DNA from: Streptomyces cupreus
GTDB taxonomy: Bacteria; Actinomycetota; Actinomycetes; Streptomycetales; Streptomycetaceae
DNA length: 64,000 nt
Reading direction: 5' to 3'
Assembly: GCF_014257025.1 (NCBI RefSeq)
Contig: NZ_JACMSF010000002.1
Location: 298,656-362,655, forward strand
Shown here in pieces: positions 37,261-60,644 of this stretch. The notes under the pieces are model-generated. The model saw nothing but the letters and a program-made list of their open reading frames with translations. It did no database searches and had not been told where the DNA came from. The first letter of the stretch is position 1. The number at the start of each line of letters is the position of its first letter. A program made the position numbers and the translations under genes.

Positions 37261-38511
37261 TCAGCCTTCCTCGGCGCGTTCCTCCTCACCCCCACGCCGA
37301 CGGCGCGCCCGCTCGGCGATCTCACTGGAGAGCCTGCCCTTGACCGAGGTGGCCCGGTCGAGCGTCTCGCTGCCGAGGCTTCTGGCGGCATCGACGCCTT
37401 TTGCTCCTGTCTCGAGCGCCTTGTCCCTCACCTCCGCGGCCGCGTGCACCCATCGCCTCGCCTCTGATGACCGGCGACCAGACTCAATCCCGAGCCGCCC
37501 GTGGAAGTCATGGACGCCGGTTGCGACATGGTTGCTCGACTGGACTACGGCCGGGGACTTGGTCGGGTGCAGCAGCACCTTCGCGTTGGCCGCGTCAGCA
37601 GCCGCATTCATCCGGGCCACCAGACGCTCGGTGCTCCGCGAGATGACATCCAGCCGCTTCTCTCGGGCAACCCGAAGCCCGAGGCGATGCCGGTCCAGCT
37701 CGTCCGGAGCCGCGTCCAGCACTCGATCGAGTTCGAGCAACGCGAACGCGTCCTGCAATTGGAAGCAACGAGCCAGTACAGCGAGCCACTCCCGAGCCTT
37801 GGACTCGACTTCCTTGGCCGTCGTGGCGAGGTCACCGATCTTGGTCTTGCCCTCCATCTTCTCCGCGAGTGCATCGAGTTGACGCAACGCATACGCCTGG
37901 GTGTCTGCGATCGCCGTCGGCGCGGCCTGCACCTTCGACCACGTGACCTCGGAGACCCGGCCCACCTGCTCCCGGATGGTCATGGCCTCCTCGATGATGA
38001 GGTCCACCCCGATCATGCGGGCCACCGCAGCGTCCTTCTGAGCGCGGAGCACGTCGTCGACCTTCTCGTCGATCCTCGCGAGATAGTCGGTGATCTCGTC
38101 CATGGTCTGCTGCATCGCGAGCTGTGCCATGATCCCTGCGGCACCAGCCAGACGCGCCGGGTTGGCCAGGAACGAGCCGGCCCCCTTCTCGACCTGGAGC
38201 CAGTTCTTGATCGAGCCAGGTTTCCCCACCATCGCATGGCTGATGCCTGGCCTCTTGGTCTCCGTAAGCCCGAACTTCTTGACACGCTCCGCGGACTCCT
38301 TGGTCAGCATCACCCACCGACCGGAGTTGGCGGCAATCTCCGAACCTGCCTGAGCGGCTGCGGCCCCGGTACCGAAGACGGACTTGAGGCGTTGCACACC
38401 GAGGTCCTTCGACGGCAGTCCCTCCGAGAGGAGGAAGCGTTCGACATCCGTCGCATTCCCGATGACCGCCAGTCCGTCGCCGTCACTGATCAGCTGAATC
38501 TCGTTGGCCAT
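37261..38511 (-). CDS. Hypothetical alpha-helical protein at the end of the kinase-helicase operon
   Basis: 416 aa, not recognised. The N-terminal 60 residues are alpha/beta (EIQLISDGDGLAVIGNATDVERFLL). A hydrophobic Ala/Gly-rich stretch follows at about 112-132 (PARLAGAAGIMAQLAMQQTM), perhaps membrane-active, then a long helical region with coiled-coil character (DEITDYLARIDEKVDDVLRAQKD to about 300). The C-terminus is highly charged (EIAERARRRRGGEEERAEEG). The helical core with a hydrophobic hairpin is reminiscent of pore-forming or membrane-remodelling effectors, but no family can be named. It begins 69 bases after the methylase stop on the same strand. It is flanked by near-identical 15-bp direct repeats. 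Confidence 0.7.
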   Translation of the reverse strand: MANEIQLISDGDGLAVIGNATDVERFLLSEGLPSKDLGVQRLKSVFGTGAAAAQAGSEIAANSGRWVMLTKESAERVKKFGLTETKRPGISHAMVGKPGSIKNWLQVEKGAGSFLANPARLAGAAGIMAQLAMQQTMDEITDYLARIDEKVDDVLRAQKDAAVARMIGVDLIIEEAMTIREQVGRVSEVTWSKVQAAPTAIADTQAYALRQLDALAEKMEGKTKIGDLATTAKEVESKAREWLAVLARCFQLQDAFALLELDRVLDAAPDELDRHRLGLRVAREKRLDVISRSTERLVARMNAAADAANAKVLLHPTKSPAVVQSSNHVATGVHDFHGRLGIESGRRSSEARRWVHAAAEVRDKALETGAKGVDAARSLGSETLDRATSVKGRLSSEIAERARRRRGGEEERAEEG

Positions 38512-38533
38512 TGCCCGCTCCTGAAGTGGCTTG

Positions 38534-38579: not shown

Positions 38580-41500
38580 TCAGGCGGGGTGCCGGGGGCC
38601 GTGGCCCGGGGGCGGGGTGAGAGTGGAGGTGTAATTCTCGCCGTCCACCAAGGGGTTTCCGAGGCTGACGCCAGCTGTGGCCATGCGGTCGTACTCGGCG
38701 AGGATCAGTTCCTTGGTGCGGTAGGTGCCATAGTTGGCCTCGTCCTTGCGGCGGACGATGGGGAAGGTGTCGAGGATGTAGTCGACGTCGGCGCGTGAAA
38801 TTCCGTAGATGTGGAAGAAGAGGGAGTCGAGTTCGGCCCGAATAATTGCCCGGCGCCGCTTATCCCAATGGAAAGGAGTTCCTGTATCACCTAGATCGTG
38901 CGCAAACGGGGCCATATCATAGGCGACGTAAGTCAGTTCCATGACGCGCGGAATGATGAACTCACGGTGTCGTTCAAGAGCCTTTGATGGGGGGACGGGG
39001 ATCTGCTCGAATGTGCTTTGCGGAATACTCGGCTGGCTAAAACTGTTTCGTAGTGCATAGTCATAAGGGAAGGAGTTGTATACGGCCACCAACAAGGAAA
39101 TCTGAATGGTGGAGGGTCCGGTGGAAAGAGTCCATCCGTATGAAGCGGCGCCCCACGGAATGATAGCAGCGATGGATGTACGCTCGTCGTTGTTTCGAGC
39201 GATACGTCGCTGCCCAAGTAGTCCGACTTTGCATTCATGGTGCCGCCGCTCTTGGCGGCTGCGAGTTTCTGTTTCGGTAACCCAGTATTGTGGCTGGACT
39301 ACGAAATCCGCCTTCAGCAAATCAATTTCAGTGGCCTCGCGGCCGTCTGTCGAGTGGGCGAAGCGATGATTGTATTGGTGTCCCATTCGCCCCTCATAAA
39401 GTGGCAGCATCTTATATCCCTCATTCTCGAATCGGTTTCCGTGAATGGACCATCCGCTGGATTCTAGGGAGTTGGCCGTTTGGAATAGGTGTGAATCCTG
39501 GGACATGTGGAACATTCGACCGAGAGATACTCGCCAGGGGTTTCCATGTGGGTCGTTTAGCTTGTTCAGGACCGGGATTCTCTGATAGATAGAAATGCAG
39601 ATCTCGGCGTCACGGCGGGATCGGAAGACGGGGCAGGTGCCCGTGTTGGGGTTAAGGAGGGTGATCTCCTCCGGAGTGAGCGTGAAGGTCTTGCCTGAAT
39701 CGTCCAGATCGGACGGATCGTGGAGGAAGAAGGCGAATCGTGCGGCCGGTTCACGCATGCCGCGGCCGGTCAGCGACAGAATGCTGAACTTCATCCGGGA
39801 GTCAACAGCAGGAAACAGGTTGCTGCGGTTCTCGAAGTCGTACAGCGCCGCGATCGAACCGTTGTGTACCAGGTCCTTGAAGAAGTACTGCGTCGTCGCA
39901 TCCGTCGCGATGCCCGTAGGTACGATGACGCCCATACGGCCACGTGGGTCGGTGAGGCGGCGACTACTTTCAGAGAATGCTGCATACGTGTTTACTGTGC
40001 CGATTCCGGTCAACTCAAACTTTCCGGAATCTCGGATAAAGTGCGCCTCGCCATCGCCCTGCCGCTTGGCCTCGCTGAATTCGAGTGCCAACTCCGGCTG
40101 GGTGCTGGCCAGCTGGGAAATCAGTTTTCGGCGTGCGGCGGCATTTTCTGCCGTTGCAATCGCGGTATTTCGCTGAGCGAAAAACTCCTGCTCCAGAAGT
40201 TTGATGCGCTCCCAAGGAGGGTTCCCCAATAGGCAGGAGAAGCCTCCAAGCCACCCCGTAGTCGAATCAACGTCACTGTCCGCAGCCTCGGAGACTGCGA
40301 ACACCTCCGGAAACTCCAGATGCCAGTGGAAGAACTTGTACTGCTGCGCGAGCCGGATAATCTCGTCGTTTGTGCTCACCGGGATGCCCGCGCCCGCGCT
40401 TTGGAGGTCATGGAATACTGCTTCCGTCACCGGCGTCGGCGCGCCCTGGACCTTGGGCCAGACGAAAGCAGCGCACCAGGCGTCGCCGATGTGCAGCGCT
40501 CGGAGATAGTCCGCCGACTGCTCCAGGTCACGGAACCGGCTGGACTGGAGTCGGACGTCGCGCAAGGTGTTGGTCGGCGCCTCAGTGATGTCGCGCAGGC
40601 TCGCCGCGAAGGCCGCGTTCGACACCCAGATGCGTTCCTCCGTGTGGAAGCTCAACTGGCCTCCGCGCTCCGCAGCGTTCCGCTTCTTGATGGCCGACGC
40701 GATCCTCTTGTCGTCGCCCTCGATCGGCTTGAACGCGTCGTCCGGGATGCCCTTGGCCAGTAGCGCCGGCGTAGCCCCGATCAACGCGTTCCCGTGCTTG
40801 ACGTGAGCGTCCAGGAAGCCCAGCGGCTTCCCCGGTTCCAGTGCCTCCAGCCACAGCGACACCTTGGCCAGTTCGACCGCCATCGGGTTGAGGTCGACCC
40901 CGTAGATGCACCGGGCCACCACCTCGTGCAGCGCGTGCCGCACCGCGTCGATCGTCGGCTCCGGGTTCTGCTCCCGTACCGCGGCCACCCGCTTCGCAAT
41001 CCGCCGAGCCGCAGCCACTAGGAAGTGGCCGGACCCGCAAGCTGGGTCGCAGACCGTCAGGTTCAGTAGTTCCTCGACGATGACCGGGCCCGGGTCCGGC
41101 TGGCCCGAGTGCGTCGCCCGGATCTCACCCCGCTTCACCGCATCGTCGATCACCGGATCCAGCGCCGAGTCCAACAGGCACTCGATCAGCGAGGACGGGG
41201 TGTAGTAGGAACCCGTCGTCTTCCTCGCGTTGCCCGCCAGCTCGACCAGCTCGAAGGTGCGCTCGGTCGCGTTGTGCTTGGGGACCAGCTCCAGCAGGGA
41301 CTCGTAGATGGAGCCCAGCTCCTCCGCGTCCAGGTGGCGGTAGTCGACCACCCGGTTCCGCTTGCTGCTCGTGTCCCGGACGATCGACAGCGCCCGGACC
41401 GCCTCCAGCAGCGGCTCGTTCGACAGGGACAGGCCGTGCAGGACCTTGTCCGCCTCCGTGTCGTCGAAGATGCCGCCCAGACCCGGCAGGCCCAACTCCG

Positions 41501-42596
41501 GAAGGCCGTCGTCGTTGCCCAGGCCCGACAGGACGAAGCGCAGCGCCTGGTACAGGTCGCCGTGGGCCGTGCCCCGGCGGCGCTGGGCGTGCCGGCGCAG
41601 GCGGGCCGAGGAGAAGTAGGCCGCGTACCGCTCCTTCGCCGTCTCGTCGGCCGACGGGGACAGCAGGACCTCGCGGTCCTCAGCCACGAACAGGAACAGG
41701 AGCCGGTAGACCATGCGCAGCAGCGCGTAGTGGAAGGTCTTGACCTCCAGGCTCTCCCTCAACTCTCGGTTCTCCGGGTGCTTCAAGAACCCCGTGCCCA
41801 GCGTCGTAATCGCCCGCTGCACACCCTTCCTCAACTGGTCCAGCGCCCGCGTGCCCTGGGCGATCGCCTCCGTGCGCCACTTCTCCAGCCAGCACGTCGA
41901 CGGCGCCGCGTCCTCCGCGACCTCGAAGCGGGACACGTGCAGCAGGCGGTACAGCAGTACGAACTCGCTGAACAGCTCGCCGTCGAAGATCGCCTCCAGG
42001 TCGAACTCGACGTACGACGCCGTGGCCAGGGCGCTGGAGTCCCGGAGCAGGCGGACCTGGCGGCCGTTGGTCAGGATGCCCCACAGGTGGGCCTCTGTCC
42101 GGTTCAGACACTCCTGGAGCATCGACTGCGGCGGGACCGTGCCCGCGCCGCCCGGTCGCTTGTCCAAGTTGGCGTTCCAGGACACCTGGTGGATGAGCGC
42201 GTGCTGCCAGCGGTGCGAGACCTCGAACCGCTTCTCCGTGTCCGAGTCCGCCGTAACGCCGTCCGTGCCGATCGGCGTCAGGCGGCCGAAGCCCAGCTCC
42301 CGCCACAGCGGCGCCAGCCAGTCGGCGCCCGCACGGCCGGTCGGGTCGGTCGCGGGCAGGCCCGTCTCCCGGTCCTCGGGGAGGTGCTTGCGCAGCTCGC
42401 GCCAGAGCGGCTTCAGATACTCCCAGCTGCGCTCCGCCTCGTCCCGTACCGAACGCGACGACGGCAGGCCGTAGTCGGCGGGCTTCGAGCCCGGGACGTC
42501 CTTGCCCTCGGAGATGCGCAGCAGCATGTCGGCCGGCAGCAAACCTCCGACCGTGTGGACGGCGGTGAACACCTGGTTGCGGGTCGTGGCGGACAT
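38580..42596 (-). CDS. drmMI: Eco57I/PglX-like N6-adenine methylase (DrmMI-like)
   Basis: A 1338-aa single-chain type IIG/BREX-like adenine methylase. The N-terminal 350 residues are helical. The SAM site is VCDPACGSGHFLVAAARRIA (near 518), and the catalytic motif is LLGNPPWERIKLLEQEF (near 792), both canonical. The following target-recognition region (about residues 800-1250, DNA about 38840-40220) has much lower G+C than the rest of the gene and non-streptomycete codons such as ATA and AAA. No PD-(D/E)XK nuclease motif was seen at the N-terminus, so it is probably a pure modification enzyme protecting host DNA. In class 1 DISARM the DrmMI methylase accompanies the SNF2 helicase DrmD; here the ATG overlaps the drmD stop (TGATG). 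Confidence 0.85.
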   Translation of the reverse strand: MSATTRNQVFTAVHTVGGLLPADMLLRISEGKDVPGSKPADYGLPSSRSVRDEAERSWEYLKPLWRELRKHLPEDRETGLPATDPTGRAGADWLAPLWRELGFGRLTPIGTDGVTADSDTEKRFEVSHRWQHALIHQVSWNANLDKRPGGAGTVPPQSMLQECLNRTEAHLWGILTNGRQVRLLRDSSALATASYVEFDLEAIFDGELFSEFVLLYRLLHVSRFEVAEDAAPSTCWLEKWRTEAIAQGTRALDQLRKGVQRAITTLGTGFLKHPENRELRESLEVKTFHYALLRMVYRLLFLFVAEDREVLLSPSADETAKERYAAYFSSARLRRHAQRRRGTAHGDLYQALRFVLSGLGNDDGLPELGLPGLGGIFDDTEADKVLHGLSLSNEPLLEAVRALSIVRDTSSKRNRVVDYRHLDAEELGSIYESLLELVPKHNATERTFELVELAGNARKTTGSYYTPSSLIECLLDSALDPVIDDAVKRGEIRATHSGQPDPGPVIVEELLNLTVCDPACGSGHFLVAAARRIAKRVAAVREQNPEPTIDAVRHALHEVVARCIYGVDLNPMAVELAKVSLWLEALEPGKPLGFLDAHVKHGNALIGATPALLAKGIPDDAFKPIEGDDKRIASAIKKRNAAERGGQLSFHTEERIWVSNAAFAASLRDITEAPTNTLRDVRLQSSRFRDLEQSADYLRALHIGDAWCAAFVWPKVQGAPTPVTEAVFHDLQSAGAGIPVSTNDEIIRLAQQYKFFHWHLEFPEVFAVSEAADSDVDSTTGWLGGFSCLLGNPPWERIKLLEQEFFAQRNTAIATAENAAARRKLISQLASTQPELALEFSEAKRQGDGEAHFIRDSGKFELTGIGTVNTYAAFSESSRRLTDPRGRMGVIVPTGIATDATTQYFFKDLVHNGSIAALYDFENRSNLFPAVDSRMKFSILSLTGRGMREPAARFAFFLHDPSDLDDSGKTFTLTPEEITLLNPNTGTCPVFRSRRDAEICISIYQRIPVLNKLNDPHGNPWRVSLGRMFHMSQDSHLFQTANSLESSGWSIHGNRFENEGYKMLPLYEGRMGHQYNHRFAHSTDGREATEIDLLKADFVVQPQYWVTETETRSRQERRHHECKVGLLGQRRIARNNDERTSIAAIIPWGAASYGWTLSTGPSTIQISLLVAVYNSFPYDYALRNSFSQPSIPQSTFEQIPVPPSKALERHREFIIPRVMELTYVAYDMAPFAHDLGDTGTPFHWDKRRRAIIRAELDSLFFHIYGISRADVDYILDTFPIVRRKDEANYGTYRTKELILAEYDRMATAGVSLGNPLVDGENYTSTLTPPPGHGPRHPA

Positions 42597-45562
42597 CAGG
42601 CGGACGCTCCAGAGACAGCAGCAGGGGCAGGAGAGGAAGCAGAGGGGTTGGCGGGCAGGTACAGATACGCGCCCAGGACGTCGGCCGGCTTCTGCGCCGT
42701 CACCGACAGGCCCCGGACGATCTCGCCGGATGCCTGCCGCACCCGGCGGTGCGAGGCGTCCAGCTCGGCGGCCAGTTCCTCGCCGTACGTCTCCAGGTAG
42801 CCGTTCGCTTCCGGGAGTTGGTCGAGGATGCGCTTCATCATGCGCTCACCGAAGTGCGGGTCCGTGTTGTCGGACGCCGTCGCGTCCAGCAGCGCCGCCG
42901 CACGCTCCTGCGACAGCCACACCGCGCTCTTCGGGGAGCCCTCGAAGGCCAGCAGCCGCGCGTCCTCCGCCACCAGCTGCTTCTCGCCGCTCCGCGACGG
43001 CAGGGTCAGGTGGAAGCGGTAGCGGACCAGCAGCAGGGTCGTACGCGTCGTCACCGCGTCCGTCGTCACCACACCGCAGCGGCGTGCCGGGCGTGCGCCG
43101 TCCGCCTGGGTGTCCAGCGCCGCGTTCAGGACGTGCGACGCGAGCGCGCCCACCACCGGGTCCGTCCGCACCAGAGCGGCCTCGCCCCGCGCCACCGCCG
43201 GGTCCGTCCGGAACGGGATCGGGCGGTCCTGCTCGATCACCTCCGCACCCACGGCCGTCGCCAGCGCGTCCCGCAGCCCCGCCGGCGTACCGCCCACCTG
43301 GGCTGTGAAGTCCTCCAACTGGTCGGTTCCCCGCAGCACCGCGCCCAGCGAGCCCAGCGCCTCCCGTACGAACGTCCTGACCTCGCCCGTACCGCCCAGC
43401 GCGTCCCGGATCGCGGCGACCTCCCTGGCCACCTCCTCCGGGTGGATCGAGCGCTGCGCGAACCGCGAACGCGACGCCTTCTCCCGCTCCGCCGCCGAGT
43501 TCCAGTCGCTGTCCAGCTTCGCCGTGCTCACCTTGAACGCGTCCGCGCCGAACAAGGCGTCCTCGTTCTCGCGGCCGCGCATCAGCAGCCACTCCACGAT
43601 CGCGTCCGTCACGCCTGTCGACAGCTCGTCCGGGACGGACACCGAGATGCCCAGGTCCTTTTTGATCTGGCGGTGCTTCTTGATGAGGACTTCGAGGACC
43701 TTGCCGTCGATGCCGTTGTCCTCGCCGTACAGGGTGATGACGCGGACCTCGTCGCGGCGCTGGCCGTAGCGGTCGACGCGGCCCTCGCGCTGGTCGTGGC
43801 GGGTGGGGTTCCACGCCAGGTCGTAGTGGACCACCGCGTCGAAGTAGTGCTGGAGGTTCACGCCCTCCGACAGGCAGTCCGTGGCGATCAGCACCCGGCG
43901 CGCGGCGGCGTCCTCGCCGGCCTCCGTCGCCAGCGCCTCGATGTTGTCGATGCGCTGCTGCGGCGAGAGCTCGCCCGTGACCGCCTTGACGACCGTCTTC
44001 GCGCCCAGCGGGCCGCGCTTCTTCGTCTCCGGGTCGTTCGCCAGCTGCTCGGCCAGGTACTTGGCCGTGGGGATGTAGCGGCAGAAGACGATCGGGTTGT
44101 AGCCGTCGGCGAGCAGGCCCTTGAGGTGCTTGATCAGGGCCTTCAGCTTGAGGTCCTGCGCCGGTCCCTCCAACTCCTCCGCCCGTTCGGCGAGTTCGGC
44201 GAGGCGCGAGCGCGGGTCGTCGGCCTCGATCTCGGCACCCGGCGCTACGTCCATGCCCTCCATCGAGTCGCTGTCGGCCGCGTCGCTGTTCAGCGGGGCG
44301 CCGAGCTTGTCGGCCTCCTCCGCCGAGGACGCGACCGCGGCCGCGGACCTCGTGCGGAGCGTCTGAGCCGCCGCCCGCGGGGACGACACCAGCGAGCGCA
44401 GCAGCGCGATCGCCGACCACCACGCTATTCGGGCCTCCCTGCGGCCTCGGCCGTCCGCCTCCTCCACCCGCTCGCTCGCGTAGGCGATCGCGTCGTCCAG
44501 CAGGGCCCGGTACTCCGGGGACAGCTTGTACGTCTCGTCCTTGAAGTAGCGGTCCGAGGGGAACGCGGTGCGCTCCGCGAGGGAGTCGTCGGCCAGTCCG
44601 TCCTCCTTGGTGAGGTACTGGCGTACGTCCGCGCGCTTGCGGGCCACGAAGTGCTGCGCCAGCAGCTTCCGGCCTGTCTCCGACTCCAGGTTCACGTGCG
44701 CCAGGTCGGGCTTGACCAGGCCCAGCAGGTTCCGGAACGCGGACTCCTTGCCGCTGTGCGGTGTCGCCGTCACCAGCAGCAGGTGCCGTTCCGCGTCCTC
44801 GGCGACCCGTCGCAGCAGCTCGTAGCGCAGCTGGTTCTGCGTGCCGGTCTTGGTGTCGTCGGCCGCCACGCATGTGTGGGCCTCGTCGACGATCACCAGG
44901 TCGGGACAGTGCCGTACGAAGTCGTCGCGGTGGCGGGTGGACTTGATGAAGTCCGTGGAGACGATGACGTTCGGGTAGCGGTCGAAGAGGGACTGGCCGA
45001 GGTCCAGGCGCCGCTCCAGGCGCGTCACCGTCGACGACAGCACCAGCTCCGCGTCGATGCTGAACTTGCCGCGCAGCTCCTGCTGCCACTGTTCCGCCAG
45101 CGCGGGCGAGCACAGCACGGCCAGGCCCGACGCCTCGCCCTGCGCGAGGAGTTCGCTCGCGATCAGGCCCGCCTCGACGGTCTTGCCGATGCCGACGTCG
45201 TCGGAAACCAGCATACGGACCGTCTTCTGACGCAGCGCCATCAGGAGCGGGACGAGCTGGTACGCGCGCGGTTCCACGGCGATGCCGGCCAGCGAGCGGA
45301 ACGGGCCCGCGCCCGAGCGGAAGCCGACGCGCAGGGCGGTGCGGAGCAGGCCGGCCGCCCGCTGGTCGCCGAGGTCGCTCGGCTCCGGCGCGGCGAACCG
45401 GGCCTCCTCGACCGTCTCGAACGCCGGGAACACGGCGGCGATGTCGTCGTCCGAGCCTCCGAGCGGGCGCAGGACGAGCAGGTCGGGCTTGCTCTCGGGG
45501 AGCACCACCCATTCGCGGCCGCGGGCCTTCACCAGGGAACCTGCGGAGTACGTGAGTGCCAT
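42596..45562 (-). CDS. drmD: SNF2/Rad54-family helicase (DrmD-like)
   Basis: A 988-aa SWI2/SNF2 ATPase. The N-terminal 60 residues form a small beta domain (SLVKARGREWVVLPES). Helicase motifs are Q/I VSDDVGIGKTVEAGLIASEL (about 117-136, with DVGIGKT as the P loop), DLVIVDEAHTCVA (near 224), LLVTATPHSGKE, a helicase-C domain with VLIATDCLSEGVNLQ, and motif VI HDQREGRVDRYGQRRDEV (near 595). An insertion (about 360-470) separates the lobes. The size and order match DrmD of class 1 DISARM, which translocates on DNA with the methylase. It lies 33 bases after the kinase-helicase stop and overlaps the methylase start. Confidence 0.87.
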   Translation of the reverse strand: MALTYSAGSLVKARGREWVVLPESKPDLLVLRPLGGSDDDIAAVFPAFETVEEARFAAPEPSDLGDQRAAGLLRTALRVGFRSGAGPFRSLAGIAVEPRAYQLVPLLMALRQKTVRMLVSDDVGIGKTVEAGLIASELLAQGEASGLAVLCSPALAEQWQQELRGKFSIDAELVLSSTVTRLERRLDLGQSLFDRYPNVIVSTDFIKSTRHRDDFVRHCPDLVIVDEAHTCVAADDTKTGTQNQLRYELLRRVAEDAERHLLLVTATPHSGKESAFRNLLGLVKPDLAHVNLESETGRKLLAQHFVARKRADVRQYLTKEDGLADDSLAERTAFPSDRYFKDETYKLSPEYRALLDDAIAYASERVEEADGRGRREARIAWWSAIALLRSLVSSPRAAAQTLRTRSAAAVASSAEEADKLGAPLNSDAADSDSMEGMDVAPGAEIEADDPRSRLAELAERAEELEGPAQDLKLKALIKHLKGLLADGYNPIVFCRYIPTAKYLAEQLANDPETKKRGPLGAKTVVKAVTGELSPQQRIDNIEALATEAGEDAAARRVLIATDCLSEGVNLQHYFDAVVHYDLAWNPTRHDQREGRVDRYGQRRDEVRVITLYGEDNGIDGKVLEVLIKKHRQIKKDLGISVSVPDELSTGVTDAIVEWLLMRGRENEDALFGADAFKVSTAKLDSDWNSAAEREKASRSRFAQRSIHPEEVAREVAAIRDALGGTGEVRTFVREALGSLGAVLRGTDQLEDFTAQVGGTPAGLRDALATAVGAEVIEQDRPIPFRTDPAVARGEAALVRTDPVVGALASHVLNAALDTQADGARPARRCGVVTTDAVTTRTTLLLVRYRFHLTLPSRSGEKQLVAEDARLLAFEGSPKSAVWLSQERAAALLDATASDNTDPHFGERMMKRILDQLPEANGYLETYGEELAAELDASHRRVRQASGEIVRGLSVTAQKPADVLGAYLYLPANPSASSPAPAAVSGASA

Positions 45563-52230: not shown

Positions 52231-54548
52231 TGAGTGCCGCTCGCAAATTCGACCCGACGAAGGGCTACAAGTTCTCTACGTACGCGACCTGGTGGGTCCG
52301 TCAGCAGATCACACGGGCCATCGCGGACGAGGGTGCGCTCATCCGGATTCCGGTCCACATGCACGAGCAGATGCGCAAGGTCTCGGCTGCGGAACGCGCT
52401 CTCGCCGCGCAAGGGCGGCCCGCGTCGGCCGTTGACGTGGCGGTGCAGTGCGACATGACCGTGCAGAGGGTGGAGGAGATACGGAGACTGAGTCGACGCA
52501 CTGACTCGCTCGACCGCGTCATCGGTGACGGCGCCACTCTAGGCGACTTCGTCGAAGAAAGCCACGCGTTGCCGTCGGTGGAGCAGGGTGTGGTGAACAC
52601 ACTCCTGATGGAAGACGTCATGGCCGTCGTCGACACCTTCTCCGAGCGTGACGCCCGCGTCCTCGTCCGACGCCTGGGCCTCGACGGCGACGATCCCTCG
52701 ACGCTCGACGAACTGGGGCGGGAGTTCGGCGTGACCCGGGAGCGCATCCGGCAGGTGGGGAGCAAGGCTCTCTCGGCATTCAGGGCGCGCCTGCGGATGG
52801 CCGGGGTCGTCAGTGCGTACGAGGGCGGGAATGCGCAGGAGGCCGCGGAGTACTGGAAGCTGGCCCGGTGGACAAAACGGCGTGCTCATAGCAGGGCGAT
52901 GCCCGTGGTCTTGGTGGACGGGCCGTCATCCCGAGCCCACGACGGCCCGACGCAGGCCGATGAGTCGTCACACCGGAACGACGGGGAGGAGGCCGCGACG
53001 GTGGAGGAAAGCGAGAGGGACGCGGGGAAGGACACGCTAGACGGTTTCGCGGAACCCCCTTTTGCGACCTCGGCCGTTGAGGCCGCCGAGCGAGAAGGGC
53101 CCGACCAAGCCGACGAGCCCGAGTCGCCTGAGTCGCCCGAGGAGCGCAACCCCGCCGAGCCGCTGCAGCGCACCGCGGACTGGGAGAAGGCCCTGCGCCT
53201 GGGGGCGAGGTTCGAGGGCGGCATCGACTGGCTGGCCGAATACGCGCTGCTGGCGCTGGGACAGGCCCAGCTGACGGTGATCCTCGGGCCTCGGGCCGCC
53301 GCGGACGTCGTACGCGCGGCGCGGGAGCGCAGCATGCCGGACCGACAGGTGCTCACGGCTCTGGAAGTCCTGCAGCGCGTCTTCGACACGCTGAGAAAGG
53401 CCCAGCGTCGGCCCGAGGACTTCTTCGAGCGGCCCTCGGAGGCACTGGTCGGGCTAACCCCCAGGGCGTACTTGGCCAGGAAGCCGTTGGTGAACTCGGA
53501 GTCCCGCCTGGCCGTGCGTGACGCGCTGCGGGAACTCGCTGCGGGCATCCCGAGCCTACGGGCGCCCGGGGAACGACGACCCGCGTCCGATGCGCACCTG
53601 GGCGGCGCGTCCGCGGGGGCCTCGGACGGTGAGGCCACGATGCCGGAGGACGTGTCCGACGATGCACGGCCGTCCACCCCTGGGGCAGCTGACGGGAAGA
53701 GCCGGACCGAGACGGTCCCCCGCCGTGGTGCACGCTCAGGCGAGAGCGGGCAGAGCCACCACCACGTGCCAGGACACGATGAGGCGATGGACGGCCCAGG
53801 AGGCCCTTCCGCAGCGGACACAGAGCTGTCCTCTGAAGACCGGGATGAGGGAACACAGTCCGTCGCCGTCCAGGGTGAGGAGCAGGGGAGCCCTGACGAC
53901 GGGCAACTCGTCGCCGGGATCCGCCGTGAGCACGAGGCCGAGCTGGAGCGTGTGCGGCTCGAACACCAGGAGCGCCTCGTCCAGGAGCGCCAGGCGCGGC
54001 AGGTCGTCGAGGAACGTGCCGCTGCCGTGGAGGCGGATACCGAGCGGCAGCTCGATGCCCTTGAGGGCGCGTTGCTGCGGCGTATGGACAAGACACTGGC
54101 TCGCCGCGAGGAGTTTCTGCGGGCCGAGGCCGGAGCGCGGATCGCGCTGCTGAAACAGGAGCAGCATGCGATGCGGCAGGAACTTGTCCGTCAGGTGGAG
54201 CAGGGTGAGGAATCCGTCCGGGTCGCCACCGAGAAGGCTGACTTCCACCAGAAACGGGCCGGAGAGACGGACAGGCGTCTGCGGGAGTACCGGGAAGGAG
54301 TCGAGACGCGTATCTCCGACCTCGAGGCGAGACTTCGACAGGCGGAAGCCACACTCGCCCAACGGAACCAGGCCGTCGAGGCGGCCCGCCGGCACGCGGA
54401 GACCGTCGAGCAGCAGGCCGCCCAGCGCATCGCCCAGAGCGAGCACAACGCCTGGGCCCGCATCAGCGAACTGCAACAAGAGCTGGCCGCGGCGCAGGCA
54501 GCCGACACCGACGGCAGCACTTTCCGGGACCGCTGGCGCCGGATCTGA
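52230..54548 (+). CDS. Sigma-70-like protein fused to a long coiled-coil region, N-terminus truncated
   Basis: 772 aa. Residues 1-190 are a group 1/2-type sigma factor from the second half of region 2.2 on: RKFDPTKGYKFSTYATWWVRQ (regions 2.2-2.4), ITRAIADEGALIRIPVHMHEQ (region 3.0) and region 4.2 STLDELGREFGVTRERIRQVGSKAL. The -10-melting aromatics YKFSTYATWW are kept. Region 2.1 and half of 2.2, needed for core RNA polymerase binding, are missing. About 300-440 is an unknown helical domain (RFEGGIDWLAEYALLALGQ), 440-560 a low-complexity linker, and 560-760 a long coiled coil (RQVVEERAAAVEADTERQLD). It is the first gene of the drmAB arm, 41 bases before drmA, behind the TTGACA/TAATCT promoter. 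It may be an autogenous activator or, as broken, a decoy or regulator. Confidence 0.75.
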   Translation: MSAARKFDPTKGYKFSTYATWWVRQQITRAIADEGALIRIPVHMHEQMRKVSAAERALAAQGRPASAVDVAVQCDMTVQRVEEIRRLSRRTDSLDRVIGDGATLGDFVEESHALPSVEQGVVNTLLMEDVMAVVDTFSERDARVLVRRLGLDGDDPSTLDELGREFGVTRERIRQVGSKALSAFRARLRMAGVVSAYEGGNAQEAAEYWKLARWTKRRAHSRAMPVVLVDGPSSRAHDGPTQADESSHRNDGEEAATVEESERDAGKDTLDGFAEPPFATSAVEAAEREGPDQADEPESPESPEERNPAEPLQRTADWEKALRLGARFEGGIDWLAEYALLALGQAQLTVILGPRAAADVVRAARERSMPDRQVLTALEVLQRVFDTLRKAQRRPEDFFERPSEALVGLTPRAYLARKPLVNSESRLAVRDALRELAAGIPSLRAPGERRPASDAHLGGASAGASDGEATMPEDVSDDARPSTPGAADGKSRTETVPRRGARSGESGQSHHHVPGHDEAMDGPGGPSAADTELSSEDRDEGTQSVAVQGEEQGSPDDGQLVAGIRREHEAELERVRLEHQERLVQERQARQVVEERAAAVEADTERQLDALEGALLRRMDKTLARREEFLRAEAGARIALLKQEQHAMRQELVRQVEQGEESVRVATEKADFHQKRAGETDRRLREYREGVETRISDLEARLRQAEATLAQRNQAVEAARRHAETVEQQAAQRIAQSEHNAWARISELQQELAAAQAADTDGSTFRDRWRRI

Positions 54549-54589: not shown

Positions 54590-57500
54590 ATGGACCCCAG
54601 ACAGGAACTCGTCGCCTACCTGCACAGACAGCTCGTCGGCCCGGCGGGGGGCGAAGACGAGACGCTCGACGCCCCGCCGGACAGGCAGTACCTGATGGGC
54701 ACCCTGTATCCCCAGGACGCCGATCTGCAGCGCCAGTTGGACCTGGCCGCCGAGGAGCCGGACGGTGCCGGTACGGAGAGGGCGGCCGAGGACACCGCTC
54801 CCGCCGCCGACCCCGTCGCGGAGTCGAACTCGTGGCTGCCCTCCTCGCTCGGCCTCAGCTTCCACACCGACGCCGCCACCGTGGAGATCCGCTGTTCCGG
54901 TGCCCGCTACGAGACCCGCTCCGGTACGAGCGAACGGGGCCGGAGCTGGCAGCGCATTCCACTGCTGGCCGAGACGCACATCCTCGGCCCCGACCGCCTT
55001 GAGGTTGCCGTCCTCGACGCGCGCGCCGAACTCCGCGTAAGGCGCCGCGCGTTCGGTACCGGACAACTGGTGACTGTGGCTCTGGTAAATGCGATCCGGC
55101 ACGAGCCGGCCCTCGGCAAGGCCGCCCAGTGGGATCGCATGCTGTTCCAAGTGGAGCTGGAGGCACGGCCCGTCGACGGCAGGGTGCTCCAGTACCCAAG
55201 CGTCCGCCTCGCCAGCCGCGACCCGGAGGAGCAGGAACTGCGCCTGCAGTACCGGCACGTGCGCACCCACGCCGTGGGACATGGCTGCGCGGTCGAGGAG
55301 CAGTACGACGATGCGGGCGGCCAGGTCACGGCGCTGCGCGCGGCCGTCATGCCGGAGGCCGAGGTCACCGGTGTGCGGGCGGCGGGCCCCAGCGGCACCC
55401 CGGTGCTGAACCTTGGGCACCTTGCCGACCCCGATATCCCTGTCAACCAACTTAGCGAAGAACTCTGGGAGTTCGCCGCCGACTACCGTGCGTGGTACGT
55501 GGGGCAGCTGAACGCGGACATCCCCGAGTGGGGACGAGCCGCCGCGGACCGCGTCCTGGGCCGTATCGCCGCCGCCGTCGCCCGCATCGAGTCAGGGGTG
55601 CGCACCCTCTGCGATCCGTCCCGGCCCGAACTGCTGCGCGCCTTCCGTACCGCCAACCACGTCATGGCGCTCCAGATGCGCCACTTCGCCCCGGATCTGG
55701 CGGGGACGCGCCGGTCTCGCCGCGACGCCGTACCCCCGGACCCAGAGCCGACTCCCGACGCCGCCTGGCGCCCCTTCCAGCTGGCGTTCTTCCTGCTGGC
55801 GCTGGACGGCGTGGCCGACCCCCGGCACCAGGACCGGGCCGTCACCGACCTCATCTGGTTCCCGACCGGCGGCGGCAAGACCGAGGCGTACCTGTTGCTC
55901 GCGGCCTTCACCATGACTCTGCGCAGGCGCGAACCCGACGGGGGCGGCACGGCGGTCCTCAGTCGCTACACCCTCAGCCTGCTCACCACCCAGCAGTTCC
56001 AGCGCGCGGCCACCACCGTGTGCGCCCTCGAAACCCTCCGTCGGGCGGACCCGGCCGGCTACGGTGACGAGCCCTTCTCGATCGGCCTGTGGGTGGGCGA
56101 GACGACCACACCGAACACGTACGAAAAGGCCCGTGCGGCCTTCGATGACGTGCGCGCAGCCGCCCGGCCCGAGGATGTGTTCATCCTCGACCGCTGCCCC
56201 TGGTGCGGCACCCGCATCCTGCCCGCCCACAAGTCACCTGACATCGCTGACTACGGCGTGCGCGCCAAAGCAGACTCCTTCGCCTTCTTCTGCCCGCGCG
56301 AGGAGTGCGTCTTCCACGACGAGCTGCCCGTCGCTGTGGTGGACGAGCACCTGTACGACCGGCCGCCCACGTTCGTCCTTGGCACCGTCGACAAGTTCGC
56401 CCGACTGGCATGGGAGCCCCGTGCCGGACGGCTGTTCGCGGCGGGCGGTACGCAGCTGCCGCCGTCCCTCGTCATCCAGGACGAACTGCATCTGCTCACC
56501 GGCCCCCTCGGCACCACGGTCGGCCTGTACGAGGCCGCCGTGCTGGGGCTGTGCACCCGGCCCGACGGCATCGGACCCAAGGTCGTGGCGTCGACGGCCA
56601 CCATCCGCCGCTCAGGGGAACAGATCCGCGCCCTCTACGGCGGTGGCGTCCAGCTCTTCCCACCCGCCGGGCTCGACGCCCGCCACTCGTACTTCGCCGA
56701 ACCGGACACCTCCCGGCCCGGCCGCCGCTACCTCGGAGTCATGGCCCAGGGACACACGGCAGGCCGCGCCGCCGTCGCCGTGGCCGCCGCCATGCTGCAG
56801 GGCGCATGGGAGCTGCCCGAGGAACACCGGGACGCCCACTGGACACTCGTCGCGTACCACCACAGCCTGCGTGAACTCGGCCGGACCGTCACCGCTGCGG
56901 CCGATGACATTCCCGCTCAGCTCGCCGGACTTGAATCCGGCCTGGGAACAAGGAAGTTGACGGATCACCAGGTGCAGGAGCTGACCAGCAACCTGCCGCG
57001 TGCGGAACAACCCGTACTGCTCGATCGGCTCGAGAAGCGATGGGACCATCCGGAGTCGGTGTCCTTCCTGCCCTGCACCAACATGCTGTCCGTCGGCGTC
57101 GACGTGAAGCGACTGGCACTGATGCTCATGCAGGGGCAGCCCAAGACGACGGCCGAGTACATCCAGGCCACCAGCCGTGTCGGCCGCCACGTCGTGCCCG
57201 GCCTCGTCGTCACCTTCTTCAACGCCACCCGGCCGCGGGACCGTTCGCACTACGAGACCTTCGACGTGTACCACCGCTCGCTGTACCGGCACGTCGAACC
57301 GACCAGCGTCACTCCGTGGTCCGTGCCCTCGCGCCGCCGCGCCCTGCACGCCGCTCTCGTCATCCTCGTCCGGCACCGCCTCGGCCTCGCCGCGGAGAAC
57401 CAGGCGGGGGCGATACTGCACCACCTGCCCGAAGCGGAGGCCGTGGTGGAGGAGCTGGCGGTGCGCGCCGAGGCCTGCGAACCCGCCGCGGGCGACGCCG

Positions 57501-57715
57501 TGCGCAAGGAACTGTCGGACCTCCTCGCGGACTGGGAGGAAGCCGCGCGCGCAGCACGCAAGGACGGCCGGGAGCTGTTCTACCGCAGTCAGGGCAAGGG
57601 CCAGTCCAACCTCATCAAGAGCTTCGAGCAGAGATACGGCCTGTGGGAGACGCCCAACTCGATGCGCAACGTCGACCGGGAGTGCCAGGTGATGGTGAAG
57701 GGAGCCGACCTGTGA
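54590..57715 (+). CDS. drmA: DISARM helicase DrmA
   Basis: A 1041-aa superfamily II helicase. The N-terminal 400 residues are a beta-rich domain of the family. Motifs are LIWFPTGGGKTEAYLLLAAF (about 422-441), a zinc-like CPWCG...CPREEC insert (about 545-575), VIQDELHLLTGPLGT (near 628), VASTATIRRSGEQIRALYGG, and motif VI IQATSRVGRHVVPGLVVTFFN (near 857). DELHL-TGPLGT and SVGVDVKRLALMLMQGQPK are characteristic of DrmA. DrmA and DrmB form the core DISARM complex that recognises DNA with free 5' ends and restricts phage. GAAGGA precedes the ATG. The stop overlaps the drmB GTG by four bases. Confidence 0.9.
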   Translation: MDPRQELVAYLHRQLVGPAGGEDETLDAPPDRQYLMGTLYPQDADLQRQLDLAAEEPDGAGTERAAEDTAPAADPVAESNSWLPSSLGLSFHTDAATVEIRCSGARYETRSGTSERGRSWQRIPLLAETHILGPDRLEVAVLDARAELRVRRRAFGTGQLVTVALVNAIRHEPALGKAAQWDRMLFQVELEARPVDGRVLQYPSVRLASRDPEEQELRLQYRHVRTHAVGHGCAVEEQYDDAGGQVTALRAAVMPEAEVTGVRAAGPSGTPVLNLGHLADPDIPVNQLSEELWEFAADYRAWYVGQLNADIPEWGRAAADRVLGRIAAAVARIESGVRTLCDPSRPELLRAFRTANHVMALQMRHFAPDLAGTRRSRRDAVPPDPEPTPDAAWRPFQLAFFLLALDGVADPRHQDRAVTDLIWFPTGGGKTEAYLLLAAFTMTLRRREPDGGGTAVLSRYTLSLLTTQQFQRAATTVCALETLRRADPAGYGDEPFSIGLWVGETTTPNTYEKARAAFDDVRAAARPEDVFILDRCPWCGTRILPAHKSPDIADYGVRAKADSFAFFCPREECVFHDELPVAVVDEHLYDRPPTFVLGTVDKFARLAWEPRAGRLFAAGGTQLPPSLVIQDELHLLTGPLGTTVGLYEAAVLGLCTRPDGIGPKVVASTATIRRSGEQIRALYGGGVQLFPPAGLDARHSYFAEPDTSRPGRRYLGVMAQGHTAGRAAVAVAAAMLQGAWELPEEHRDAHWTLVAYHHSLRELGRTVTAAADDIPAQLAGLESGLGTRKLTDHQVQELTSNLPRAEQPVLLDRLEKRWDHPESVSFLPCTNMLSVGVDVKRLALMLMQGQPKTTAEYIQATSRVGRHVVPGLVVTFFNATRPRDRSHYETFDVYHRSLYRHVEPTSVTPWSVPSRRRALHAALVILVRHRLGLAAENQAGAILHHLPEAEAVVEELAVRAEACEPAAGDAVRKELSDLLADWEEAARAARKDGRELFYRSQGKGQSNLIKSFEQRYGLWETPNSMRNVDRECQVMVKGADL

Positions 57716-59559
57716 GCCGCACACTGCGGGTACGCCAGTCCCAGACGGTGGTGCCCTTCGGGGTCGGAGCCGTCTTCGACATCCAGGGCGAGTCGTTCGT
57801 CGCCACCGGAATCGGCGACTGGCCGAGCCGGGGCAGGCAGCAGGTCGACTCGCCCAGGCTGGCCTCCCGGATCGGGGTGACCGGCTTCTACGCCGCGCCG
57901 GCGACGGCCAATGACCGGTTCGACACGCCGGACGCGCCCGGGGCGCCGTACATCCGTTTCCCGTCCTGGCTCTTCTGTGGTGCCTGCCGTCGCATGACCA
58001 GGTGGCGCATCGCGGACGAGAAGCCAGGCCGGCCGCCGCGCTGCCCGTCCTGCTCGCCCGGGCGGGCGCTCGCACCCATGCGATTCGTGCAGATCTGCCC
58101 GGCCGGACACCTGAGCGACGTCGACTGGTGGTTCTGGGCCCATTCCCGAAAGGACGCGGGCGAGCGCCGGCAATGCGGTGACCGTGACAAGCTGCGCTTC
58201 CTGGTCTCAGAACGCGCCTCCGGCCTCGAGGCACTCTCCGTGGCCTGCACCGCCAAGGGCTGCGGAGCGGCCCGGGACCTGCTCGACATCCTCGGCACGC
58301 ACGGCATGCGCTGCTCGGGACGCAACCCCTGGCAGCGGGCGAGCGAGGCCGGGGAGTGCGTGAAGCCGGTGCAGGTGGTGCAGCGCACCGCGGGAAACCT
58401 GTACTACCCGATCGTTCACTCGGCGCTCGACATCCCCGAGACCGACGCACCGGCCGTCACCGACGACGCGCTCGCCGCACGAGTGCGCGGACACGATCTG
58501 TGGGTGTCGCTGTGCAGAGGCGCCGACTCACCGCGGGCCGAGGTCTTCCGCTCGATGATTCAGGAGGACACCGGCGCCGACGACCAACTCCTCGACACCC
58601 TCCTCGCCGAGGAGACGGGGAGGCCCACCGCGGCGACCTCCACCGGGACCGGTACTCCCGACCGGCCCGACCTGAGTCGGGAGGAATGGGACGCCTTCAC
58701 CGCTCCGGCACCGCCGGCCACCCGCGACTTCGCGCTGCGCGAGACCACGCTCGGTCTCGCCAGCGAGACCGCCGACCCCTGGGTGAGCCTCAGCCGCCGG
58801 TTCGGCCGGATCGTCCTCGCCGACCGGCTACGCGAGGTGCGCGCCCTGTCGGGCTTCACCCGGGTGTCCCCGGACGCCACCGTCGTCCCCGCCGACACCG
58901 CGCGGCGCCTGAGGTGGCTACCCGCCGTGGAGGTCTTCGGAGAGGGCATTTTCCTCACCCTGAACAAGAGTGAACTCGCCGCCTGGGAAGCGGACACCAG
59001 GGTCCGACGCCAGGTCTCCGGCATGCGAGCCGACCTCGATCGCTCCTTCCAGAAGGACCGTCTGGAGATCCTGACCGGACCGGAGCTGTCCCCGCGATTC
59101 GTGCTCCTGCACACCCTCGCGCATCTGCTGATCCGCCAGCTCTCCTTCGAATCCGGATACACGACGGCGAGTCTGCGCGAACGCATCTACGCACGCCGTG
59201 AGCAGGATCAGTACGGCATCCTCGTCTACACGGCCGCAGGCGACGCGGAGGGAACTCTCGGCGGTCTCGTCCAGCAGGGTGAGCCGCCCAGGCTCGCTGA
59301 GACCCTGCTCCGGATGACGGAGGCCGCAGCCTGGTGCTCTGCCGACCCCCTCTGCGCCGAGCACACCGGCCAGGGCTTCGGCAACCTCAACCGCGCGGCC
59401 TGCCACGCCTGCGCGCTGCTCCCCGAAACCAGTTGCGAGACCGGAAACACCCTCCTCGACCGCGCCCTCCTCGTCGGCGGCGAACGGGTGCCCGGCTACC
59501 TGGAGTCCATCGTCACCGCGGCCCGCGCCGCAGCCGCCGACGCCGTGGAGGAGATGTGA
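57712..59559 (+). CDS. drmB: DISARM protein DrmB (DUF1998)
   Basis: 615 aa. It opens LRVRQSQTVVPFGVGAVFDIQGESF, the standard DrmB N-terminus, followed by Cys pairs CGACRR and CPSC (near 84-113), QICPAGHLSDVDWW and CPAGH-type zinc residues. The C-terminal DUF1998 has LLHTLAHLLIRQLSFESGYTTASLRERIY, DPLCAEHTGQ and the closing Cys set NRAACHACALLPETSCE. DrmB partners DrmA. The GTG start overlaps the drmA stop and its own stop overlaps the next gene's GTG, so three proteins are translationally coupled. Confidence 0.92.
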   Translation: MSRTLRVRQSQTVVPFGVGAVFDIQGESFVATGIGDWPSRGRQQVDSPRLASRIGVTGFYAAPATANDRFDTPDAPGAPYIRFPSWLFCGACRRMTRWRIADEKPGRPPRCPSCSPGRALAPMRFVQICPAGHLSDVDWWFWAHSRKDAGERRQCGDRDKLRFLVSERASGLEALSVACTAKGCGAARDLLDILGTHGMRCSGRNPWQRASEAGECVKPVQVVQRTAGNLYYPIVHSALDIPETDAPAVTDDALAARVRGHDLWVSLCRGADSPRAEVFRSMIQEDTGADDQLLDTLLAEETGRPTAATSTGTGTPDRPDLSREEWDAFTAPAPPATRDFALRETTLGLASETADPWVSLSRRFGRIVLADRLREVRALSGFTRVSPDATVVPADTARRLRWLPAVEVFGEGIFLTLNKSELAAWEADTRVRRQVSGMRADLDRSFQKDRLEILTGPELSPRFVLLHTLAHLLIRQLSFESGYTTASLRERIYARREQDQYGILVYTAAGDAEGTLGGLVQQGEPPRLAETLLRMTEAAAWCSADPLCAEHTGQGFGNLNRAACHACALLPETSCETGNTLLDRALLVGGERVPGYLESIVTAARAAAADAVEEM

Positions 59560-60644
59560 CCGTCACCTATCTCGACCTCACCCGGGAACAGCGCTCCTGC
59601 CTCGACGATTTGCCCTTCGACGGCAACCACCTCATCAGTGGTCCGCCGGGAAGCGGCAAGAGCCTCCTTGCGGCCCAGCGAGCCGTCATGCTCGCTCTGA
59701 CGGGAACGCCGGTGGTCCTGCTGACCTATTCCAACCTGCTGCACCAGTCGCTGGCCGGAGCCGTCCACGCGCTGGGACCCGCGGACCGCAGCGTGCGGGT
59801 GCGGACCGCGCACGCCTGGCTCACCGAGTGGTACGGCGGGAAGCCGCCCGGTGGTCCGGACGGCTGGTTCGACTGGCCCGCCCTGTACGAGCGGGCCGCG
59901 GCGACCGACCCTCCGCCCGGACTCACCCTGGTCGTGGACGAAGGCCAGGACCTGCCGCCGGAGTTCTACCGCCTCTGCCGACTGCTAGGAGCCCGCACGA
60001 CGGTGTACGCGGACGAGTGCCAGCGTCTGACCGACACCAACTCAACACTCGCCGAGATCGTCGAGCGCCTGGGCCGCTGCGCGCGCCACGAACTCGACGG
60101 CAACCACCGCAACACCCGGCAGATCGCCTCCTTCGCGGCCCACTTCCACACCGGAGCCGGCCTGCCCCCGATACCCGAACGGGCGGGCCCGTCTCCGCGG
60201 CTGCACCGTCTCCCGCAGCGTGGTGCCGCCGACCTGGTGATGCTGCTGGCCAAGCAGCATCCGCAGTACAGCATCGGAGTGATAACCCACTCCAAGCACA
60301 CTCAGTTCTCATTGCTCGGCACCCTGCAGAACAAGGCGCCCAGACTCAAACCACAGCTCTATACCTCCGATGCCTGGAAAGGGGGCCGCTACCACCGCCT
60401 GGACCTTGGCCGTCCCGGCGTCGTCCTGGTCCATCGGAGAAGCGCCAAGGGACTCGGCTTCGACACCGTCGTCATCCCCGACACGCACACCGACGCCGCC
60501 ACTGATCCCACCTCGGCCGCGCTGCGCATGGAGTACTACGTCATGGCCACGCGAGCCCGACGCGAGCTGCATCTCGCTTACGAAGGAGCATCCGAGCCGC
60601 CGCTGTTGGCGCAGGTAGGGCCGAGCGATTTGCTACGTGGCTGA
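59556..60644 (+). CDS. Compact superfamily I (UvrD-like) helicase/ATPase in the drmC position
   Basis: 362 aa. SF1A motifs: ISGPPGSGKSLLAAQRAVM (about 28-46), VVDEGQDLPPEFYRLCR (near 125, DEGQD in place of DExQ), ELDGNHRNTRQIA (motif IV) and VMATRARRELHLAY (motif VI). LVHRRSAKGLGFDTVVIPD is motif V. At this size the 1B and 2B subdomains are nearly absent, so processive unwinding is doubtful and a switch or DNA-sensing ATPase is plausible. It is coupled to drmB by a four-base overlap, exactly where DISARM loci usually carry drmC, a phospholipase-D-family nuclease. No HxKxxxxD motif exists in it. It is the last gene of the arm and of the island. Confidence 0.85.
   Translation: MTVTYLDLTREQRSCLDDLPFDGNHLISGPPGSGKSLLAAQRAVMLALTGTPVVLLTYSNLLHQSLAGAVHALGPADRSVRVRTAHAWLTEWYGGKPPGGPDGWFDWPALYERAAATDPPPGLTLVVDEGQDLPPEFYRLCRLLGARTTVYADECQRLTDTNSTLAEIVERLGRCARHELDGNHRNTRQIASFAAHFHTGAGLPPIPERAGPSPRLHRLPQRGAADLVMLLAKQHPQYSIGVITHSKHTQFSLLGTLQNKAPRLKPQLYTSDAWKGGRYHRLDLGRPGVVLVHRRSAKGLGFDTVVIPDTHTDAATDPTSAALRMEYYVMATRARRELHLAYEGASEPPLLAQVGPSDLLRG

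Follow-up and report, generated by a model that had tools for sequence, protein, structure and literature searches.

Divergent ARMADA type I-like and DISARM-like operons in a putative anti-phage array of Streptomyces cupreus

Overall organization of the locus

Positions 37261–60644 of a 64,000-nucleotide stretch of Streptomyces cupreus DNA (the window; source genome of 9.4 Mb in 209 contigs) carry two divergent operons that meet at ∼52 kb. The locus is probably an ARMADA type I-like operon placed back to back with a DISARM-like DrmA–DrmB–SF1 operon, and with the nearby McrBC/RelE–UvrD genes it probably forms one co-regulated anti-phage array that would destroy incoming phage DNA. We observed the gene content of the locus and its family matches, the joint recurrence of its modules in other genomes, a dyad sequence upstream of the operon heads and a truncation of the sigma-like gene in this strain. 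The recurring, apparently co-regulated array is a variant built from ARMADA, DISARM-like and McrBC modules, and a Hanks-type kinase appears to have been built into its ARMADA helicase in one actinobacterial lineage. ARMADA, DISARM and the McrBC link are each already in print. No description of the kinase fusion, of a sigma–DrmAB–SF1 arm beside ARMADA or of the dyad was found in the portions of the open-access literature covered (subscription papers and supplements lay outside this scope). The eight genes that an earlier note on this DNA had placed in two divergent operons are all present, each confirmed at its position, and two further elements lie between the arms:

37261–38511, minus strand: 416-aa protein of no known family; optional
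38580–42596, minus strand: PglX/DrmMI-like Eco57I-class N6-adenine methyltransferase, 1338 aa (domain and PADLOC models)
42596–45562, minus strand: SNF2/BrxHII-RapA-like helicase, 988 aa (PADLOC models and motifs)
45596–51886, minus strand: kinase–YprA helicase fusion, 2096 aa, with Pkinase (residues 11–275), DEAD (432–615), Helicase_C (1298–1366) and MZB/DUF1998 (1839–1933) domains and a predicted PD-(D/E)xK nuclease tail (domain and PADLOC models)
52029–52043, plus strand: perfect dyad GTTGACATTGTCAAC (GTTGAC-N3-GTCAAC), a predicted operator or promoter element between the arms (pattern search)
52078–52230, plus strand: 5′ remnant of the sigma-like gene, 50 codons, out of frame, with a TGA that overlaps the ATG of the 772-aa frame (comparison with relatives)
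52230–54548, plus strand: sigma-70-like protein, 772 aa, 5′-truncated, with region 2 in part, regions 3 and 4 and then, by eye, a charged coiled-coil-like tail (domain models and relatives)
54590–57715, plus strand: DrmA-like helicase, 1041 aa (PADLOC and alignment with 7S9V)
57712–59559, plus strand: DrmB-like DUF1998 protein, 615 aa (PADLOC and alignment with 7S9V)
59556–60644, plus strand: compact SF1 (UvrD/GajB-like) helicase, 362 aa (domain models and motifs)

The DrmA, DrmB and SF1 genes overlap start to stop. The count of four ATPases plus a kinase given in the earlier note is borne out by Walker A, DELH/DEAH/DEGQ and kinase motifs, and the minus arm is closed, as described there, by the 416-aa protein.

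Minus-strand operon

In ARMADA type I systems, which are abundant in Actinomycetota, the gene for a YprA-like helicase ending in a Vsr-type nuclease generally comes first, and genes for a BrxHII/RapA-like helicase and a PglX-like methyltransferase come next (Bell et al. 2025 preprint, PMC12458937). The minus arm has the same gene order in one operon. Its YprA-family helicase contains a DUF1998/MZB domain and a nuclease-like C-terminus, and is followed by a BrxHII/RapA-like SNF2 helicase and a PglX-like adenine methyltransferase. The helicase part of the 2096-aa protein matches the DruE models of PADLOC best (E = 3.3e-102), and the YprA proteins of ARMADA are reported to be most like those of Druantia (PMC12458937). 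The methyltransferase matches Eco57I (2.1e-17), DrmMI (4.2e-72) and PglX (1.5e-14) models and contains NPPW and DPACGSG motifs.

The SNF2 helicase matches a series of PADLOC models. The best is DpdE (PDLC02853, 1973 bits), compared with 274 bits for the best DrmD model; BrxHI and BrxHII models match at 2.3e-56 and 1.5e-44, respectively. The name DrmD, given to this protein in the earlier note, is one of several fitting labels and not the closest. Assignment to a Dpd system through DpdE was considered and set aside: the best models of the other seven proteins are never Dpd, and the operon order fits ARMADA.

Relatives of the kinase–helicase gene retain the same companions. From the best 80 of 557 matches to a query that includes the kinase, 79 related loci were taken, a set that therefore over-represents kinase-bearing copies. 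An SNF2 gene accompanies the kinase–helicase in 79/79 of these loci and a methyltransferase gene in 77/79; the contig ends first in the other two. The closeness to DruE, the gene order and these two counts together support an ARMADA identity of the minus arm. The 416-aa gene can close either arm: it lies 3′ of the methyltransferase in 14/79 loci and beside the SF1 gene in genome G057 (loci L129/L147). Pfam searches at E values up to 10 returned nothing useful for the 416-aa protein, for the kinase–helicase tail or for the N-terminus of the UvrD-like protein of the McrBC module. The locus differs from ARMADA type I in its added divergent DrmAB arm, linked McrBC genes and RelE–UvrD gene, and in the kinase of its YprA protein.

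Kinase–helicase fusion

The 2096-aa kinase–helicase–DUF1998 protein heads the minus arm, as the earlier note had it, and its Pkinase, DEAD, Helicase_C and MZB/DUF1998 domains were all matched. The N-terminal Ser/Thr kinase contains VAVK, HRD, DFG and APE motifs. It distinguishes this YprA protein from ARMADA type I as described in the main text of PMC12458937, in which the word 'kinase' never appears. Counted as strings anywhere in the protein rather than as aligned positions, HRD or YRD, DFG and APE are found in 74/74 kinase-bearing loci checked and VA[VI]K in 67/74. A kinase domain is present in 116 of the best 120 of 7995 YprA relatives.

A fairer kinase count comes from a class-wide sample that was selected through the SNF2 protein and comprises 20 of 25 loci (the own locus, G013, G365, G409 and a second G374 match were left out). 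In the 9 loci with an SNF2 identity of ≥62%, the kinase is always fused, and in the 10 with an SNF2 identity of 50–55% it is always missing; one further locus has no YprA match. Acquisition of the kinase looks like one capture in one lineage. Some single close relatives are also devoid of it (e.g. L048). Just one of the nine kinase-fused class-wide loci, in which ∼2 kb upstream was covered, has a trace of the plus arm. Since the kinase persists where no plus arm is seen, a kinase-to-sigma signalling axis is unsupported and was abandoned; the kinase is part of the minus operon and not of a regulatory connection between the arms.

Three side observations concern relatives of this protein. At L145 (genome G117), the kinase (4680–5645) and the YprA helicase (5810–11071) are two divergent genes rather than one fusion. 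A second, distant YprA-like open frame of 2250 aa is located elsewhere in the S. cupreus genome (G000:C199:20989-25140). A 69% identical kinase–helicase at L038 is on a contig labelled Candidatus Melainabacteria, which is likely a binning contaminant.

The last 139 residues of the kinase–helicase show invariant columns of the PD...FVD...RD...W.V.R type in 16 aligned sequences. In a fold search with a predicted model of this tail (pLDDT 78), 13 of the first 15 matches carry a PD-(D/E)xK-type nuclease by our own assignment, at E values of ∼0.05–0.14. Three points weigh against a nuclease at this end: the fold matches further down include gelsolins and other unrelated folds, none reaches an E value of 0.001, and a sequence-profile search against PDB sequences yielded no Vsr match. 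Given the weak fold E values and the negative Vsr search, the predicted PD-(D/E)xK nuclease is suggestive. A Vsr identity by sequence was discarded, and what the model suggests is a fold class.

Plus-strand operon

DrmA and DrmB of the plus arm are genuine homologues of the proteins in the solved DISARM core (7S9V, PMC9142583), and the homology covers nearly their whole length (DrmA against 7S9V_A, E = 1.2e-151; DrmB against 7S9V_B, E = 7e-66; the DrmB query began at 57715, one codon after 57712). Nothing here corresponds to the first ∼130 residues of the solved DrmA, and the stretch aligned to its trigger loop (residues 176–232 there) is shorter. DrmA also gives a weak DruE-like match in PADLOC. 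The plus arm differs from DISARM by the lack of DrmC and of an operon methyltransferase and by the addition of the SF1 helicase and the sigma-like protein. No match to DrmC, a PLD nuclease, was detected in the eight proteins or on the window's contig, in agreement with the earlier note, and the three matches in the genome are all on other contigs. Neither DrmMI nor DrmMII accompanies DrmAB in this arm, the nearest such gene being that of the minus operon.

The earlier note had read the whole locus as a single DISARM variant under signalling control, with its genes divided between two operons. Such a system would explain why DrmA, DrmB, DrmMI-like and DrmD-like proteins and a kinase are all present, and the DrmA and DrmB identifications stand. 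The SNF2 protein, however, scores far higher with DpdE than with any DrmD model, and the kinase/SNF2/methyltransferase operon occurs without DrmAB in 57/79 loci (10 kb of upstream sequence was covered in full at 45 of them and in part at the other 12). This frequency and the published ARMADA type I gene order indicate that the minus-strand genes form an operon of their own, and a split DISARM is highly improbable. The locus was not filed as DISARM because two defining features, DrmC and a methyltransferase with DrmAB, are missing and the minus operon occurs alone. A gene list alone (DrmA, B, D and MI) can pass for a single known system when two are present.

A sigma-70/coiled-coil protein heads the plus arm, as previously noted, and comparison with relatives adds that this copy is 5′-truncated, which the earlier note could not see. 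All 36 compared copies are longer, with 162–673 extra N-terminal residues counted from the most upstream start (L124, which has only a C-terminal sigma match, was left out; at least two genomes are represented twice, by L009/L123 and L054/L121). Sigma region 2.1/2.2 is located in the extra N-terminal part of 15 aligned copies and is missing from the 772-aa copy. Moreover, the kinase gene is separated from the matching sigma stretch by 344 bases here, compared with ∼1.0–1.3 kb in divergent relatives. The sigma-like gene was cut at its 5′ end by an out-of-frame deletion in the source genome, and the truncation makes the sigma function of its relatives doubtful in this strain.

The loss of the 5′ part and the out-of-frame remnant that it left would also be expected if the plus arm were decaying in the source genome and only the minus arm, plus McrBC, still worked. 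This alternative is possible but doubtful: DrmA, DrmB and SF1 align end to end with their relatives, the ATPase motifs of DrmA and SF1 are intact, and translation of the truncated frame could re-initiate at the TGATG overlap.

Distant DrmAB cassettes (L131–L133 and L135–L137) have other partners. Those at L131 are a sigma-HTH protein with a GHKL-ATPase-like motif (by eye), a NERD-helicase, a DUF6339 protein and apparent C5 methyltransferases (by eye). The partner at L137 is an HTH protein without a sigma domain.

Co-occurrence of the two arms

Of the 79 kinase–helicase loci, 19 contain DrmA and 22 show at least some trace of the plus arm; these loci all come from Streptomyces or Kitasatospora. 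Linkage was counted in 150 same-genus genomes with a 50-kb limit, using 15 DrmA matches of 68–100% identity (close DrmA; lower-identity matches were left out), the best 26 UvrD matches, all 36 McrC matches and all 43 HsdM-like methyltransferase matches. Close DrmA is present in 15 of these genomes, SNF2 in 23 and both in 12 (Fisher p = 2.8e-9, or 1.5e-8 minus the own genome; related genomes are not independent, and the p-values therefore overstate the association). The earlier note had allowed that the two arms might never co-occur elsewhere, and in this sample they do. At 11 of the 15 close-DrmA loci, SNF2 is no more than 50 kb away, in two layouts. The arms are adjacent and divergent in G000, G128, G101, G024, G124 and G142 and convergent in G013, G049, G085, G117 and G057.

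Protein distances are correlated between the arms. The kinase–helicase or SNF2 protein compared with DrmA, DrmB or SF1 gives correlations of 0.58–0.74 (≤2/2000 permutations), and comparisons within an arm give 0.86–0.93; these values, from 16–21 loci, include shared host ancestry. The methyltransferase behaves differently from the other proteins, with correlations of 0.27–0.28 to its own operon (reached in 17–18/2000 permutations) and of 0.02–0.07 to the plus arm (16–21 loci). It evolves largely apart from its neighbours, as expected if its target specificity is swapped.

Linked McrBC module

The earlier note ended the locus at 37261. The recurring array extends further to the left, to position 24249, and includes McrBC–UvrD genes and a further methyltransferase gene:

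24195–24209: imperfect dyad with two mismatches, upstream of the HsdM-like gene (pattern search)
24249–25919, plus strand: HsdM-like N6-methyltransferase, 556 aa
25948–28092, minus strand: RelE-like domain plus UvrD/GajB-like helicase, 714 aa, ArmD-like
28124–29335, minus strand: McrC, 403 aa, PF10117
29332–31188, minus strand: McrB-like AAA protein with DUF4357, 618 aa

Around the 25 SNF2 loci of the 150 same-genus genomes, the HsdM-like methyltransferase was found within 50 kb of 23, McrC of 20, UvrD of 19 and close DrmA of 11. McrB and McrC also lie 3′ of the ARMADA genes on the same strand in 8/10 kinase-less class-wide loci. An association of McrBC operons with a DISARM-like system, whose figure legend names YprA, DUF1998, SNF2 and PglX, has been announced in print (PMC11090510, which gives the association only as an announcement). 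The kinase fusion, the sigma-like protein and the dyad are features of the present locus that were not met in the part of that paper covered.

The N-terminal part of the UvrD-like protein has a predicted fold resembling that of RelE-family toxins. In the list of PDB matches to its model, the first 27 are toxins of the RelE/YoeB/YafQ/ParE type or complexes of such toxins; target TM-scores reach 0.72, and E values are no better than 0.01. With this predicted RelE-like N-terminus on a GajB/UvrD-like helicase, the protein resembles ArmD of ARMADA type II, to which it was likened by description. It differs in position, since the gene is 3′ of McrB–McrC here and not of the YprA gene.

Shared dyad upstream of the operon heads

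The window contains nine sites of the dyad at ≤2 mismatches, compared with 1.94 expected. At ≤2 mismatches, the dyad precedes the kinase–helicase gene in 21/21 loci that have plus-arm genes there (shuffles, mean 0.24). For the gene-by-gene counts at ≤1 mismatch, exact duplicate upstream stretches and those shorter than 150 bases were dropped, and genes matching at <100 bits were classed as 'other'. At ≤1 mismatch, the dyad is found upstream of 51/89 kinase–helicase genes and 19/29 sigma genes, and of none of 318 SNF2, methyltransferase, 416-aa, DrmA, DrmB, SF1, McrC and UvrD genes. When the arms are convergent, the dyad stands separately at both heads in four of five genomes (kinase–helicase side, L140, L142, L144 and L147; sigma/McrB side, L125, L126, L127 and L129). 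In the fifth genome, G117, the kinase side has the dyad at two mismatches and the sigma side (L128) has none.

A second conserved element, near CGTACACGA, is located tens of bases from the dyad upstream of the kinase–helicase. It is found at one mismatch in 18/21 plus-arm loci (shuffles, mean 0.68) and in 28/54 others (mean 2.15).

Joint array or independent neighbours

Several observations weigh against a joint array, in addition to the relatedness of the genomes and the shared ancestry included in the counts above. Kinase–helicase loci often stand without the plus arm, and DrmA cassettes of 56–57% identity live without SNF2, so neither arm needs the other. G136 (L120, L148) keeps the plus arm with only end fragments of the kinase–helicase and methyltransferase, and at L067 the minus arm is accompanied by no more of the plus arm than DrmB/SF1 fragments; both layouts are natural deletion scars. 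Defence genes cluster in any case. The dyad at ≤2 mismatches is also present in 34/54 kinase–helicase loci without a plus arm (shuffles, mean 0.69), and random 450-base windows of such loci hold it at two mismatches in 230/3000. At ≤1 mismatch, it is rare at McrB (4/25) and at the HsdM-like gene (1/16; 11/16 at two mismatches), and it occurs at 17/838 other genes, several of which are divergent neighbours of the kinase–helicase and one of which (L125) is an unlabelled sigma gene. No dyad was detected at the sigma gene in L120, L128 and L130–L133. The dyad contains a −35-like TTGACA, which makes promoter and operator indistinguishable here, and it may be a plain promoter element.

These points would fit two independent systems in one defence island, with ARMADA type I and an unrelated DISARM-like operon as mere neighbours and the dyad as a common promoter type. 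Each arm does occur alone, and other defence genes fill the slot head-to-head with the kinase–helicase: a Mokosh-like helicase–PLD gene (L140:1720-4791, L142:11080-14130), a DrmD-like SNF2 gene (L035:4631-8017, L056:6288-9710) and TmtA (L072:5329-9672). In these five loci, the dyad at ≤1 mismatch is upstream of the kinase–helicase. We nevertheless hold independence to be a less probable, if serious, alternative, given that SNF2 is found within 50 kb of 11/15 close DrmA loci, in two layouts, that the dyad is kept at both the kinase–helicase and sigma heads in 4/5 convergent genomes and that cross-arm distances correlate. A single co-regulated array of ARMADA type I-like, DISARM-like and McrBC modules is the reading followed below.

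Proposed mode of action

We infer the following mechanism and coupling between the arms. The methyltransferase would mark host DNA, and its specificity would be exchanged rapidly among strains. DNA lacking this mark would be a loading site for the SNF2 and YprA helicases and a target for cleavage by the putative PD-(D/E)xK tail of the YprA protein. The fused kinase may gate the YprA protein, in a role like that proposed for PglW in Pgl/BREX type 2. DrmAB would attack single-stranded or 5′-ended DNA; as the DrmAB arm has no methyltransferase of its own, we propose that it borrows the ARMADA enzyme for self-recognition. The solved DISARM core acts on DNA with 5′ overhangs (7S9V, PMC9142583). McrBC would take modified phage DNA. 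In relatives, the full-length sigma-like protein would connect the DrmAB operon with RNA polymerase, a link that is probably lost in the source genome.

ARMADA type II depended on each of its four genes and gave protection without cell death (PMC12458937); by analogy, a direct, non-abortive mode is plausible here. RapA, which associates with RNA polymerase, is a parallel to the BrxHII helicases (PMC12839542), and this parallel, together with the sigma-like protein, opens a transcription-coupled reading. In its fullest form, the locus would be one immune network in which a single SNF2–methyltransferase pair serves two YprA-type engines, the kinase-fused ARMADA helicase–nuclease and DrmAB. The sigma-70-like protein and the RapA-like SNF2 helicase would bring DrmAB to promoters that RNA polymerase has opened on invading DNA, giving transcription-coupled restriction switched by the fused kinase. 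We consider this extension unlikely. Three questions have become testable: the substrate of the kinase, the use by DrmAB of another system's methyltransferase for self-recognition, and the reason why sigma-70-like proteins travel with DrmAB.

Comparison with other defence systems

Pgl/BREX type 2 shares several traits with the minus arm. Its kinase protein PglW also has an endonuclease domain and is found with a methyltransferase in Streptomyces (PMC12839542). The kinase here differs in being fused to a YprA helicase, and PglZ, a feature of that system, has no match among those listed for the eight proteins. For Druantia, the best 25 PADLOC matches per protein include DruE-like matches only, with no DruH or other Druantia label. 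Mza and MADS labels also appear in PADLOC, with MzaA assigned to the sigma-70-like part, mad6 to the kinase and mad2 to the HsdM-like methyltransferase. Beyond these, the matches listed for 14 window proteins include weak ones to mad8 and mad1 and no further Mza label.

Genes between the McrBC module and the minus arm

Between the 416-aa gene and McrBC, positions 33606–35459 encode a GmrSD_N/HEC-05 protein, a candidate restriction gene. Positions 36231–37144 encode what we take, by eye, to be a pair of an HTH-like protein and a small DUF397-like protein. Similar small-protein pairs are located near the locus in L018, L019, L139, L141, L146 and L147.

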